Assembly (NCBI GenBank): GCA_951813395.1
Contig: OX638356.1
Location: 3,794,501 to 3,858,500 of the forward strand
Direction: 5' to 3'
DNA from: Longimicrobiales bacterium
GTDB lineage: Bacteria > Gemmatimonadota > Gemmatimonadetes > Longimicrobiales > Gaopeijiaceae
Length of the DNA: 64,000 nt
Shown here: one piece after another, positions 4,797-64,000 of the stretch
Layout: every line of letters starts with the position of its first letter
Numbering within the stretch: the stretch's first letter is position 1
Translations under genes and position numbers: made by a program
The notes under the pieces: model-generated
What the model saw: the letters and a program-made list of their open reading frames with translations, nothing else
The model's database searches: none
Told to the model about the DNA's origin: nothing

Positions 4797-7700
4797 ATGT
4801 CCATAGGGGACAATTGGCGCTCCAGAGACCGGATCCTGCGCGTGGTGCGGCGAGTGCGGCGCCGCTGGCGTCTCAAGCTCATGCTGCGAGGCCTCGCCCT
4901 GACCGTCGCCGGCGCCCTCGTCACGTTCCTGGTTTCGGCCTCCAGCCTCGAGTTCCTGCGCTTTCAGCCGGAAGCCGTGACCGCCTTCCGAATCGTCCTG
5001 TGGCTGGTCGTGGGCTTCTTCCTCGTTCGCTCGGTCATTTGGCCCCTGCTCCGCCCCATCCGCGACGAAAGAGTCGCTCTGTACCTGGAAGAGAACGAGC
5101 CTTCGCTGCAGGCCCGTGTCCTGGCCGCCGTGGAGTCGGCCCGCAAGGCCGACGAACTGGAGCGCTCTCCGCTGCTCCAGGAGGTCGTCAAGCGCGCCGT
5201 CACGGAATGTCGGCGCATCGATTACGGCAGCCGCGTCGAGCGGCAGTCCATTCGCCGCTCCGCGGGAGCGCTCGGCGGACTCACGCTGGCATCGGTCGCC
5301 GTTCTGCTCCTGGGCCCCGGCTTTCTTCGCCACGGCATGTCCGCGCTGTTCTTCCCGACGCGCTCGGCGGAATCCGTGAATCCCTACAGCGTTGCGGTGA
5401 CGCCCGGCGACACCACCATCTCGCGCAACTCCGACCTCCTTGTCTCGGCCTCCCTGCAAGGCTTCGCCTCGGACGATGTCGTGCTGTATACCCGAGAGAC
5501 CGGCACGAACGGCTTCGTGGACACGCGCATGATCGAGGACGGCGCGGGCGCGTTCGAGGGGCTGCTTCTGAACGTCGCCGAAGAGACCACGTACTACGTC
5601 GAGGCGAACGGCGTCCGCTCCGGGACCTTCACCCTCGGGGTCGCCGACCTCCCCGCGGTGGATCGTCTGGCCATGGTGTACCACTTCCCGCGCTACACGG
5701 GTCTCGCGCCGCGCCGTTTCGAGTACGGAGGAGACGTGGCGGCCCTCGCCGGGACCCGGGTCGAGATCGAGGTCACACCCACGATCGCCACACCCGGCGC
5801 CCTGATCGTGATGGATGCGGGCGACACGATCACCATGGAGGCTGGGCCGGAGGGGACCTTCGGCGGATCATTCACGGTGCGCGACGAAGGATTCTACGGC
5901 ATCCGCCTCCAGACCCACGAAGGGGTTTGGGTCACCGGCGCGCCGGACTACCGGATCGACGTGCTCTCGGACCAGGGACCCTCGATCTCGTTCAGCAAGC
6001 CGGGACGCGACACGGATGTCAGCGCCATCGAGGAGGTGTTCATCGAAGCGCGCGCCGACGACGATCTGGGCGTCCATGACGTGCGGCTGGTCTACAGCGT
6101 GAACGGCGGGCCATCCGACACCGTGAGGCTGCACGCCTCGGGAGGAGCACCCGTCACCGGACTGACGGCGAGTCACACGCTCTTCCTGGAGGACTTCGAG
6201 CTGGAAACGGGCGACCTCGTGGCGTATCACGGGATCGCGCGCGACAACGCCCCTTCGCCGCGCGAGGCCCTGACCGACATCTACTTCCTGAAGGTACGGC
6301 CGTTCCGCCGAGACTTCCGCGAAGCCGAGGGCGGCGGCGGCGGTGGCGGGGGTGGGGGTGGTGGCGGCGACGGGATGGATCAGGACCTGTCGGCCATCCA
6401 GCGGCAGATCATAGCGGCGACGTTCAACCTCGTGAGGGACCGGGACAGCTACACGCCGGACGTGTGGGAAGAGAACGTCGTCAGCATCGCCCTGAACCAG
6501 GAGCGGCTGCGGGAGCAGGTGCAGACGTTGAGACAGCGGATCGTGAACCGTGGCATCGCAGGTGCGGACGAGACGTTCGAGCGGATCGCCGAGACGTTGC
6601 CTGTTGCGGTTGAAGCCATGTCCGAATCCATCGACTCTCTGCGCGCGTTGAACCCCGGAGGCGCCATCGCGCCCGAGCAGCGCGGCCTGCGCCAGCTCCA
6701 GAAGGCCGAAGAGACGTACGAGCGCTTCGTATCGCTGGAAAGGCAGCAGGGCGGCGGGGGTGGCGGTGGCCAGCAGGGTCCCAGCGCCGAGGACCTCGCC
6801 GACCTGTTCGAGTTGGAGACCGACGCGCTCCGCAACCAGTACGAGACGGTTCAGCGAAGCCAGCAGGAGAGTGCCGACCAGGGCGTCGACGAGGCCCTGG
6901 AAAAGCTCCGCGAGCTGGCGAGGCGTCAGGAACAGGAGCTCGAGCGCCAGCGGCTCAGGGCGTCGGCTCAGCAGGGTGGCGGCGGTGGTGGCGGAAGCCA
7001 GGCCGCCCGGGATCTGGCTGAAGAGGCGGAAGAAGCTGCGCGACAGCTCGAACGCCTGTCGCGCGAGTCGGGCGACCGCCAGCTGGAGGAAGTCGCTCGC
7101 GGGTTGCAGCGCGCGGCGGACGCCATGCGCCGATCCGCGGCGAATCGCGGGAACACCGGCGTAACCGAAGCTCGTTCGGCGCTCGACCGGCTGCGTCAGG
7201 CGCGGGACCAGCTGGAAGGCGTGCAGGACGACCGCCTGGAACGGGATCTGGCGGACGCGCGTGAGCGTGTGGCGGGCCTGTCACGCCAGCAGGAGGATGT
7301 CCAGAACCGCATGGCGGCCATGCGGCGGGCGGGACGTCCTTCCGCCGACCAGGTCGGGAGGATCAACGAGACCAAGGAAGACATGGCTGAGGAGGTGGGT
7401 GACCTTCTGGCCCAACTGGACCAGCTCGGAGCCAGCGCAAGGCGCGATGGCGCGGCGGGAGCCAGAGAGCTGGAGGGAGCCGCCGAGACGATCCGCGAGA
7501 CGCAGTTGCGTGAGCGGATCCTCTGGTCACGGAGCCTGGTGGGACGGCGGGACCAGGAGGAATACGCCGAGGCGTTCGAGGACCAGAACGCGCAGGCCAT
7601 CCAGTCGCTCGCGAATCGGCTGGATGAAGCTGCCGACGCCGTTCGCGACCGGGTCACCGAAGACGTTGCGACGGAGGCGCTCGAGTCGGCGCGGGACCTG

Positions 7701-58813: not shown

Positions 58814-59057
58814 ATCGGCGACTCGAGTCCTTGCGGTTGAAGGGCCAATGACCTGACGGCGGCGGAGCGTTCACGACACCTGCACCGTTCAAGCTGGACA
58901 GTCGGAAAATACCGTGCAAGAAGAGTAGTTGTTTCGGAGAGCGAAGCGAGCCCGTACCTTTTCTACTCGCAATCGTGAAAGCGCCGGGCCCGACACCGCC
59001 ACCTGCGGGCGTCTCGGAGTGTCGGATAGCCCCGGCAGTGCAAAGGCAATCGGAAAC

Positions 59058-60230
59058 ATGCTCTTACAGAACCGTCGCGACTTCCTGAAGACGACCGCGG
59101 CCGCGGCCGGAGCCTTCGGCCTCGGCGCGGCTTGCGCCCCATACGAAGACCAGGGAGATGGCTCCCCGTCCCCCATGACCATCCTGGTACTGGGAGGCAC
59201 CGGGTTCATCGGCCCCCACATGGTCGAGTACGCCGTGTCGCGGGGACACACGGTCTCGCTTTTCAACCGCGGCCGCACCAACACCCACCTGTTCCCCGAC
59301 CTCGAGAAGCTCGTCGGCGACCGGGACGGCGATCTGGCCGCCCTGGAGGGCCGGCGCTGGGACGCGGTCATCGACAACTCCGGTTTCTTCCCCCGGCATG
59401 TGCGCGACTCGGCCACGCTCCTCGCCGACTCGGGCCGCTACATGTTCGTGTCGTCAATCTCCGCCTACAAGGACCTGACCCCGCACGGCATCACCGAGGA
59501 CTACGAGGTCGGACGGCTGGAGGACCCCACCGTGGAGGAGATGACGAACACCACCTACGGCCCCCTCAAGGCGCTGTGTGAAGAGGCCGTCCAGGAGATT
59601 TTCGGCGAACGGGCGAACATCGTCCGGCCCGGCTACATCGTCGGCCCCGGCGACGGCAGCGACCGTTGGACCTATTGGCCCGTGCGCGTGGCCGCGGGTG
59701 GCGACATGGCCGTACCCGGCCTTCCCGAGGACCCCGTCCAGTTCATCGACGCCCGCGACCTGGGGGGCTGGATGGTGCGCATGTTGGAGGACGAGGTCGG
59801 CGGCGTGTTCAACGGCGTGGGTCCGGTCGAGCCGGTGAACATGCGTCAGATGCTCGAGGCCTGCAGGGACGTGAGCGGCAGCGACGTGGCGTTTCACTGG
59901 ATCGACGCCGCGTTCGTCGAGGAGCAGGGCGTCACGTTCCCGATCTGGAACCCCACGACCGGAGACTGGGGAGGCGCGCACCTGGTCGACCACTCTCGAT
60001 CGATCGCGTCCGGGTACACGAGCCGCCCCGTCGCCGACACGATCCGGGACACGCTGGCCTGGTGGAACGGACTGACCGAAGAGGACCGACCGGGGGGCGC
60101 CCTGCGGAGCGGCTTGCGCAAGCGGCCCGAACCGGGCTCCGAAATGCGACGGGGTCCCGTGACAATGGCTGAAATGATGGAAGACGAGGCGGCACTGCTG
60201 GAGGCCTGGGCGGCGCGTGCGGAGGAATAG
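59058..60230 (+). CDS. Tat-exported NAD-dependent epimerase/dehydratase-like protein
   Basis: 390 residues from ATG 59058; the frame is open upstream to 58929 but the Tat signal (NRRDFLKTTAAAAGAFGLG, with a possible lipobox ending GAAC) begins here. An extended short-chain dehydrogenase fold follows: ILVLGGTGFIGPHMVEYAV (nucleotide-binding loop, about 43-61), SLFNRGRTNTHLFPD, DRDGDLAALEGRRWDAVIDN, RYMFVSSISAYKD and RPGYIVGPGDGSDR. The classical YxxxK is replaced by a YGPLK stretch. Closest in style to CSP41/isoflavone-reductase-like epimerase families. Substrate unknown. A paralogue starts at 63517. The STAS gene follows 18 bases later. Confidence 0.88.
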   Translation: MLLQNRRDFLKTTAAAAGAFGLGAACAPYEDQGDGSPSPMTILVLGGTGFIGPHMVEYAVSRGHTVSLFNRGRTNTHLFPDLEKLVGDRDGDLAALEGRRWDAVIDNSGFFPRHVRDSATLLADSGRYMFVSSISAYKDLTPHGITEDYEVGRLEDPTVEEMTNTTYGPLKALCEEAVQEIFGERANIVRPGYIVGPGDGSDRWTYWPVRVAAGGDMAVPGLPEDPVQFIDARDLGGWMVRMLEDEVGGVFNGVGPVEPVNMRQMLEACRDVSGSDVAFHWIDAAFVEEQGVTFPIWNPTTGDWGGAHLVDHSRSIASGYTSRPVADTIRDTLAWWNGLTEEDRPGGALRSGLRKRPEPGSEMRRGPVTMAEMMEDEAALLEAWAARAEE

Positions 60231-61634: not shown

Positions 61635-63122
61635 GTGTCCGACAAGATCACCCGCAGAGACTTCGTGGACCACGGGTCCAAACTGGCCATGGGCGCGATG
61701 ATCGTCCCACGCCATGTGCTGGGAGGCCCGGGGTACCAGGCGCCGTCCGACCAACTCAACCTCGCAATCATCGGGGTGGGCGGACAGGGCACCGAGAACG
61801 CCCAGGAGTTCGGGACCGAGCACATCGCCGCGATCTGCGATGTGGACTTCGGCGTAGTGCACCGGCGGGTCCAGGAGCGGATGACCGATGGCGACGGCAA
61901 TCCGCGCGAAAAGGGCTACCGCTGGCGCGACCAGTTCTTCGAGGCGCGCCAATACACCGATTTCCGCGAACTCCTGGACCGCGAGGCCGACCTCGACGCC
62001 GTCCTCGTCGCGACGCCCGATCACCTTCACGCCTCCATCGCGAAGGCCGCGATGGAAGGGGGCAAGCACGTCTTCGTCGAGAAGCCGCTGACCTACACGG
62101 TCCACGAGGGGCGCGTGCTTGCCGAGATCGCGCAGCGCACGGGCGTGGTCACCCAGATGGGGAACCAGGGCCATTCCGGCGACGACGCGCGGCTTGTCAA
62201 CGAGTGGGTCCAGGCCGGCGTGATCGGCGACGTGACCGAGGTGCACATCTGGACCAATCGTCCGATCTGGCCGCAGGGGATCCATCGTCCGGAGCGCTGG
62301 GAGGAGGGACTGAACCCGGGCTGGTACCAGCAGTGGCACCAGGGCGCCATCCTGTCCGTCGCCGCGGACGTCATGGACGCGGGATACGCCCTGCCCGAGG
62401 GCATGGACTGGGATCTCTACCTGGGACCAACCACCAGGGAGATTCCCTACCATCCGATCTACCACCCCTTCAACTGGCGCGGCTGGGTCGACTTCGGGGT
62501 CAGCGCGCTCGGCGACATGGGTGCGCACCTGGTCGACCACCCCTACTGGGCCCTCGGACTGACCCACCCCACCACCATCGAAGCCACCTCCACCCCTTGG
62601 GGCGGCCCGCAGGACGATCCCGCTTCCTTCCCGCTGGCCATGCGCGCGCACTACGAGTTTCCGGCCCGCGGCTCCATGCCGGCAGTCGACCTGCACTGGT
62701 ACGACGGCGGCCTCATGCCCCCCCGCCCGGCCGCACTCCCCGACGATGTCGACCTCAACCGCACGGGCGGCGTGATGTTCATCGGCGACCGCGGCATCCT
62801 CATGCACGGCACCTACGGCCGGAACCCCCGGCTCTTCCCGGAGTCGCTCACAGCCGAAGCCACAGAGGTGCCCCAGACCCAGCCGCGCATCGAGGAGACC
62901 CACCAGATGAACTGGGTCAAGGCGTGCAAGGAGGGTGGCGAGGCGTCCTGCCCCTTCGACTACGCGTCCCGCCTCACCGAGGTGATGCTGCTGGGGATCG
63001 TTGCGCTGCGCACCGGCCAGGGGAAGAAGATCCGCTACGACGCCGACGCGATGCGCGTCACCAACGTCGAAGAGGCCAACCGCTACCTGACGCGCGAGTA
63101 CCGGGAGGGGTGGGAGGTGTGA
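61635..63122 (+). CDS. Tat-exported Gfo/Idh/MocA-family oxidoreductase
   Basis: 495 residues from GTG 61635. A twin-arginine leader ([20 protein letters not shown]) precedes a Rossmann fold with [12 protein letters not shown], the catalytic-type [14 protein letters not shown] motif and [20 protein letters not shown]. The C-terminal alpha/beta domain is complete ([19 protein letters not shown]). Members oxidise or reduce sugars, inositols or related polyols using tightly bound NAD(P). A bacterial precedent for Tat export is the glucose-fructose oxidoreductase of Zymomonas. The substrate is not determinable. It begins 129 bases from the divergent DUF1028 start. Confidence 0.92.
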
Positions 63123-63202
63123 GGCTCGCCGGGCCTGCGCGGCACGCGGGAGCGATCCGCTGACGGGGACTTGATGGCGCAGCAGGACCGACCGGTGTTG
63201 AC

Positions 63203-63274
63203 ATGCCTGGAATGATGGCGGACCTCAATCGGCTCGGCACCAGCCTGGAGCGGGAGGCCACCTGTGGCTGCTGA
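63203..63274 (+). CDS. Possible 23-residue peptide ending Cys-Gly-Cys
   Basis: ATG 63203 (with further ATGs at 63212 and 63215) opens a short frame MPGMMADLNRLGTSLEREAT followed by CGC and TGA 63272-63274. It is in the same frame as the 18-residue Cys-rich peptide downstream. A TTGACA hexamer at 63198-63203 precedes it, but no convincing -10 box or ribosome binding site is visible. Shown because it is in the 394-base gap between two larger genes and ends in the same Cys/Gly style. It may well be chance. Confidence 0.25.
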   Translation: MPGMMADLNRLGTSLEREATCGC

Positions 63275-63325
63275 CCGGACCAGTGCAGGACGATCGACAC
63301 GTCAACCCCAATCATGGAGGACACG

Positions 63326-63382
63326 ATGACAAACGTCTGCGGATGTTGCGGCGGCGGTTGTTGCGGCGGCGCCTGCTGCTGA
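63326..63382 (+). CDS. 18-residue cysteine/glycine-rich micropeptide
   Basis: ATG 63326 to TGA 63380-63382 encodes MTNVCGCCGGGCCGGACC: 7 cysteines and 6 glycines in 18 residues. GGAGG lies at 63316-63320, 5 bases before the ATG, one of the best ribosome binding sites in the window; the alternative ATG 63314 would put that site inside the coding region. The cysteines fall as CGCC, CC and CC spaced by glycines. No signal peptide, hydrophobic segment or protease site is visible. Possible roles are thiol-mediated metal binding, or the precursor of a modified peptide, but no maturation enzyme is recognisable nearby. I know no described family for it. A long hairpin begins 8 bases after its stop, which supports a short independent transcription unit. 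Confidence 0.6.
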   Translation: MTNVCGCCGGGCCGGACC

Positions 63383-63390
63383 GCGAGCCC

Positions 63391-63446
63391 GGCAAGCTGC
63401 AAAGGGGGTCGGCTGGCAGGATCGGCCGGCCCCCAGGGGGCTTGCC
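63391..63446 (+). terminator. Two-stem hairpin after the Cys-rich micropeptide
   Basis: Outer stem GGCAAGC (63391-63397) with GCTTGCC (63440-63446) is perfect over 7 bases. The inner stem GGGGGTCGGC (63404-63413) with GCCGGCCCCC (63425-63434) pairs over 10 bases with one G-U, around an 11-base loop. No T-run follows. It can act as a terminator, an mRNA 3' stabiliser or part of a small RNA. The next gene begins 70 bases later. Confidence 0.6.
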
Positions 63447-63516: not shown

Positions 63517-64000
63517 ATGACGCACACGCGCCGCCGCTTCCTCGCCGCCGCCGGAGCCGCCGCTCTCACGCCCGGCCAGGCGCTCTCCGCCGCAGCTTCG
63601 CGGCCCGGCTCCCCGTTCGGCACCGGCGCCCTCCGCCCGGCCCCCACCCCCACCCCCAACCCCCTCAGGATCCTCGTCCTGGGCGGAACCGGGTTCATCG
63701 GCCCGCACCAGGTGCGGTACGCAATGTACCGGGGCCACGAAGTCACGATCTTCAACCGCGGCCGCACCAACCCCGGCCTCTTTCCGGGAGTGGAGGCGCT
63801 GGTCGGCGACCGTGACGGGCAGCTCGACGCCCTGCGCGGCCGCACCTGGGACGCCGTCATCGACAACAGCGGCTACGTTCCCCGGCACGTGCGCGACTCG
63901 GTGGAACTCCTGCGCGATTCGGTGGGGCGCTACCTCTTCACGTCCACCGGGTCGGTGTACAGCTTCGACCAGGACGAGATCACCGAGGACGGCGTGCTGC
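63517..64000 (+). CDS. Tat-exported NAD-dependent epimerase-like protein (3' end outside window)
   Basis: ATG 63517, open to the window end (161 residues seen). A Tat leader (THTRRRFLAAAGAAALTPG) and a Pro/Ala linker precede RILVLGGTGFIGPHQVRYAM, TIFNRGRTNPGLFPGVEALV, GDRDGQLDALRGRTWDAVID, NSGYVPRHVRDSVELL and RYLFTSTGSVYSF. This is collinear with the protein at 59058-60230, clearly a paralogue. The catalytic and C-terminal parts lie outside the window. Confidence 0.88.
   Translation, partial: MTHTRRRFLAAAGAAALTPGQALSAAASRPGSPFGTGALRPAPTPTPNPLRILVLGGTGFIGPHQVRYAMYRGHEVTIFNRGRTNPGLFPGVEALVGDRDGQLDALRGRTWDAVIDNSGYVPRHVRDSVELLRDSVGRYLFTSTGSVYSFDQDEITEDGVL

Follow-up and report, generated by a model that had tools for sequence, protein, structure and literature searches.

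A repressor and a metallothionein form the smtB-smtA pair of Synechococcus, in which SmtA has roughly 55 residues. Much shorter cysteine-rich sequences are known as designed tetracysteine tags, which carry the biarsenical-binding pattern CC-x2-CC and bind the two arsenic atoms of one dye. In Anabaena, the ArsR/SmtB-family repressor AzuR controls a metallothionein gene (AzuR/NmtA; PMC8790569) and, in ars operons, the C-terminal vicinal cysteine pairs of ArsD have been tied to As(III) sensing (PMC4562236). Genes for intracellular arsenic sequestration, according to a 2025 paper, have not been found in ars operons (PMC12093948).

The locus described here lies in a 64,000-nucleotide stretch of a Longimicrobiales genome (the window) and contains a cysteine-rich ORF that, with a probability of roughly 0.5, encodes an ArsR-controlled, arsenite-binding micro-metallothionein. 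Together, arsR and the peptide gene look like a two-gene, metalloid-responsive unit because a putative operator precedes intact arsR and recurs before acr3 operons.

The peptide gene and its relatives

The ORF (63326..63382, + strand), delimited by ORF reading and orthologue comparison, runs from an ATG at 63326-63328 to a TGA at 63380-63382 and specifies 18 residues, MTNVCGCCGGGCCGGACC, of which seven (39%) are cysteine. A Shine-Dalgarno sequence, GGAGG (63316..63320, + strand), is situated 5 nt before the ATG, and the whole lies in a gap of 394 bases between the stop of an oxidoreductase gene at 63122 and the ATG of the next gene at 63517. The first-pass annotation had described this ORF, with its start, stop, gap, GGAGG and a hairpin after the stop, exactly as found. 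Genes of 18 codons are below the length caught by routine gene finders, and a tRNA was the only match in an Rfam scan of the window. The window also contains a pair of similar genes, about 4.5 kb apart (58929-60230 and 63517-64000), whose products resemble NAD-dependent epimerases and start with twin-arginine-like sequences. A GGAGG-led ATG ORF of 12-40 residues with at least six cysteines was present once in the real gap and in none of 20000 dinucleotide shuffles of it, a criterion fixed after the ORF had been seen, so that weight was placed on comparative evidence instead.

The region was present at 82-85% DNA identity in six genomes of the same genus, and a nearly identical sequence was present at the same locus in a seventh genome, G252 of genus g12. 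The entire G252 locus (L022), flanks included, resembles genus g1, which points to either horizontal transfer or a mis-binned contig. All seven same-locus relatives encode a peptide of 19 residues (MTNVCGCCCGGGCCGGPCC, MTSVCGCCCDGGCCGGPCC, MTSVCGCCCDGGCCCGPCC or MTNVCGCCCDGGCCGGACC), from which the peptide in the window differs by an in-frame deletion of one TGC codon. Residues other than cysteine vary among these peptides (N/S, G/D, P/A). In the six relatives first aligned, none of 16 columns at first and second bases of cysteine codons varied as opposed to 27 of 114 flanking non-coding columns (p 0.04), a difference that suggests selection on the cysteine codons and is only mildly significant among such close relatives. 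Three divergent members, those of G322 (MTRNDCSCCDNGCCGGGCC), G352 (MPCRSSGCCGDCGCGDGGCC) and G275 (MPNGTSGCCDECGCGGGCC), were found by an ArsR search across the family followed by reading downstream.

Thus, the peptide occurs in ten other genomes of the same GTDB family, to which G322 also belongs and which falls in Longimicrobiales, an order of Gemmatimonadota; the 11 carrier genomes, including that of the window, represent five genera. The GGAGG, ATG, stop and cysteine pattern are kept throughout, with GGAGG placed 4-9 nt from the ATG in 11 of 11 members. Each member has 7-8 cysteines in 18-20 residues, separated mostly by Gly, Asp, Asn, Pro and Ser, and in consisting of little besides cysteine and small residues all resemble the metallothionein class. 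A shifted frame was seen in none of the 11, and in the eight orthologues from the same locus every cysteine was kept except for the one codon deleted in the window itself. Conservation in the ten other genomes, the comparison that the first-pass annotation had proposed as its own test, supports a real, constrained peptide gene.

A DNA pattern derived from the known members gave exactly 11 matches in 121 genomes of the family, all at arsR or an arsR remnant; recovery of these members was expected because the pattern was made from them, and the informative part of this result is that no match fell elsewhere. The reversed control pattern gave few, scattered matches. No further true match was noted in a class-wide scan of 394 genomes. 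One match in that scan, from G175, was rejected as a member since it ends in TGG, which is admitted by TRR in the pattern and is not an ORF end. Searches of Pfam, NCBIfam and PDB with versions of the peptide that were 20 and 23 residues long, queries so short as to have little power, returned no match, and a literature search found no description of arsR-linked cysteine-rich microproteins.

The arsR partner, its putative operator and the probable arsenic context

In all 11 members the peptide ATG lies 15-52 nt behind arsR or its remnant, the gene being intact at nine loci, truncated at one (G275) and reduced to a remnant in the window. An ArsR/SmtB-family gene, or what is left of one, therefore adjoins every peptide gene, as in the smtB-smtA pair. 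Intact arsR of the seven same-locus relatives has 112 codons from a conserved ATG and ends approximately 51 nt before the peptide ATG. The product is identified as a metalloregulator by NF033788 (76 bits, cut-off 55) and Pfam HTH_5, and its CVCGE motif falls, as judged by eye, where E. coli ArsR has the cysteines of its As(III) site. At the G275 locus (L051:9246-9464), the 5' part of arsR is replaced by unrelated sequence, while the cysteine-rich peptide that follows is undamaged. In a tree of ArsR proteins the peptide-linked repressors formed two groups, and supported forks excluded a single group; the pair may thus be either an old one that was often lost or one with two origins.

Other neighbours vary from locus to locus, with an oxidoreductase and an epimerase in the window, a lipase/esterase-like gene in G352 and the GroEL region in G275, and no neighbour besides arsR was shared across the loci read. 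Since no maturation gene recurs at these loci, as would be expected beside a RiPP precursor, the earlier suggestion of a peptide that is later modified has no backing.

The hairpin (63391..63446, + strand; folding and same-locus comparison) has an inner stem at 63404-63434 and outer arms at 63391-63397 and 63440-63446. The folding energy of a 101-nt stretch containing it was -54.5 kcal/mol (z -3.0 against dinucleotide shuffles). Each of the eight same-locus genomes has stable stems after the peptide stop, as do G275 and G352, where they are written differently. The hairpin is without a U-run, and a terminator scanner called no terminator there on the + strand; its terminator-like form fits a candidate end of the arsR-peptide transcript. 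A short ORF followed by a strong hairpin inside an intergenic gap would also suit a leader peptide or attenuator, in which ribosomes translating the cysteine codons would respond to the level of cysteine or the state of cellular thiols and thereby govern both the hairpin and the gene beyond it, and metal-responsive regulatory uORFs such as CruR are known (PMC9426467). This arrangement is improbable, however, in view of the different genes found downstream at different loci and the conservation of arsR upstream; no conserved regulated gene directly follows the peptide gene at the divergent loci.

Arsenic as the probable context of the peptide gene was suggested by the distribution of a palindromic motif, TATCGTNNATNGNCGATNAACGA. 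Allowing at most one mismatch, this motif occurred at one site per genome, immediately ahead of arsR, in nine of nine carriers in which that gene is intact (in G322 it was read on both strands), and it was found in neither the genome of the window nor G275. In the non-carriers G188, G250, G338 and G332 it precedes arsR-acr3, arsR-arsA-acr3 or acr3, where the ACR3 products scored 397-409 bits, while the one remaining non-carrier match, in G012, is probably due to chance. Thus, outside the carriers, the motif occurs almost only before arsenite-efflux (acr3) operons. In G332 (L191, around 6537-6559), acr3 follows the motif at once, without an intervening arsR, a layout from which use of the palindrome in trans may be envisaged. 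Annotated plasmid relatives of ArsR are accompanied by arsN2, arsenite methyltransferase and ACR3. Since the operator is common to acr3 operons and the plasmid relatives have ars neighbours, the switch is most likely an arsenite switch, although the specificity of ArsR is not safely readable from sequence. The only detected output of this switch, besides arsR itself, is the peptide.

Soft-metal binding by the peptide, first proposed from its composition, is supported indirectly because the putative operator of its metalloregulator partner carries the motif common to arsenite-efflux operons. The preferred reading is as follows. In its intact form, the unit would comprise arsR followed by the peptide gene, with ArsR occupying the operator upstream of arsR. 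Binding of metalloid by the cysteines of ArsR would release the repressor from the operator, and arsR and the peptide gene would then be co-transcribed up to the hairpin. In the cytoplasm, the translated peptide of 18-20 residues would use its vicinal cysteine pairs to bind a thiophilic metalloid, for which As(III) and Sb(III) are the likeliest candidates, and once this was sequestered ArsR would re-repress the unit.

The same unit might instead serve another metal, such as Cd(II), Pb(II), Zn(II), Cu(I) or Hg(II), which ArsR would sense and the peptide would bind as a micro-metallothionein. Cysteine-rich peptides bind many soft metals, the repressor weakly matches CmtR, a sensor of Cd/Pb (49 bits, well short of the cut-off of 150), and Zn and Cd are the metals handled by the known pairs of an ArsR/SmtB repressor and a metallothionein (AzuR/NmtA, PMC8790569). 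An operator motif common to acr3 operons of the same family and the presence of annotated ArsR relatives in ars operons nevertheless render another metal unlikely, if still a serious competitor to arsenite.

Constant adjacency to arsR and vicinal cysteine pairs like those of the As(III)-sensing ArsD C-terminus (PMC4562236) could also indicate that the peptide is no sink but a small metalloid donor or co-factor, with ArsR or a detoxifying enzyme as the recipient of its As(III), much as ArsA is supplied by ArsD. Such a partner role is quite improbable for a peptide that persists in two genomes with arsR deleted or truncated and that has no ArsA or ACR3 neighbour at the carrier loci.

ACR3 was above cut-off in none of the 11 carrier genomes and was present in 26 of 110 other genomes of the family at E <= 1e-30. 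This apparent exclusivity of pump and peptide is not significant (one-sided p about 0.06) and follows lineage. ArsB was likewise above cut-off in none of the 11 carriers, with an ArsB-like fragment below cut-off in G352.

The damaged copy in the window

The gap in the window, in which the first-pass annotation had placed the ORF alone, also contains a 3' remnant of arsR (63212..63274, + strand; MMADLNRLGTSLEREATCGC and stop), homologous to the final 20 of the 112 codons that make up the intact gene, and a TTGACA (63198..63203, + strand) left over from the arsR promoter. Both the link to arsR and the loss of the regulator beside this copy had been missed. The deletion, with its junction at about 63209-63212, joined the TTGACATGC of the promoter to about codon 92 of arsR and removed the -10 region, the operator and about 90 arsR codons; the final 20 codons survive, as do the ribosome-binding site and the peptide. 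No second arsR of the same type was found in the genome of the window (E <= 1e-10).

Deletion of the regulator, operator and -10 region has orphaned this copy, which has lost one cysteine codon as well and may be unregulated or silent. Expression of the orphan is doubtful; it may be transcribed by read-through or be decaying. From these losses it could be argued that the ORF is non-functional in this genome, either as a relic of a once-working unit or, along with the rest of the family, as a Gly/Cys frame that arose by chance in GC-rich DNA. For the family, chance is ruled out by linkage of 11 of 11 members to arsR in two divergent groups, and the shuffles also make it unlikely. The frame, GGAGG and stop of the copy in the window are still intact, which argues against a relic, and a non-functional ORF is considered very improbable overall, although this copy taken by itself may still be one.

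Relation to known systems

A similar arrangement was noted at a Bacteroidota locus (L095, 3330-3421), the single case among about 80 loci, in which arsR is followed 32 nt on by a 30-residue ORF, MKVQSIFQKDPSPCCGTGSDCCNITDWGCC, and then by a hairpin, with an arsenate-reductase-like ORF (low-molecular-weight, by eye) beyond. This ORF contains three vicinal cysteine pairs, has no clear homology to the family peptides and gave no match in a plasmid tblastn search; it is possibly an independent case of the arsR-peptide arrangement. Other myxococcal and Bacteroidota CC..CC "peptides", at least 300 nt behind arsR, were rejected as separate genes, as by eye they read like ArsD C-termini. ORFs that end in CC-x(n)-CC in the manner of the ArsD C-terminus were noted at the Myxococcota arsR loci L060, L071, L081 and L111.

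It is tentatively proposed, with somewhat less confidence than for the ORF in the window, that these genes represent a new family of arsenite-binding micro-peptides of 18-20 residues, each being the only output of a dedicated ArsR switch. Such peptides would give arsenic tolerance to bacteria that lack ACR3 by sequestering arsenite inside the cell instead of exporting it, and the Bacteroidota ORF would be a look-alike. If true, the peptide would rank with the smallest metallothionein-like gene products found in nature and would supply the kind of gene, for intracellular arsenic sequestration, that according to PMC12093948 has not been found in ars operons. Ultra-short genes overlooked by gene finders are recoverable through strict linkage to a regulator, and the peptide offers a natural short sequence open to direct study of metalloid binding in synthetic form.

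Compared with ars operons that contain ArsR and ACR3 (TIGR00832), the unit has the same class of ArsR and the same operator motif but a peptide as output gene, with no efflux pump, reductase or methyltransferase beside arsR at the carrier loci read. Cysteine pairs a few residues apart are shared with ArsD, although the latter is a full protein of about 120 residues whereas here the cysteine stretch is the whole gene product. The likeness to tetracysteine tags, which is by analogy only, lies in the small size of the peptide and in vicinal cysteine pairs of a kind that suits trivalent arsenic, the spacing here being mostly CC-x3-CC. With smtB-smtA and AzuR/NmtA, the unit shares an ArsR/SmtB-family repressor, a small cysteine-rich peptide and an inverted-repeat operator, control by which is predicted here. 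It differs from both in a product of 18-20 residues with no detectable sequence relation to SmtA, in a repressor of the arsenic type, as judged by the common operator, and in the co-directional placement of arsR upstream of the peptide gene on one presumed transcript.
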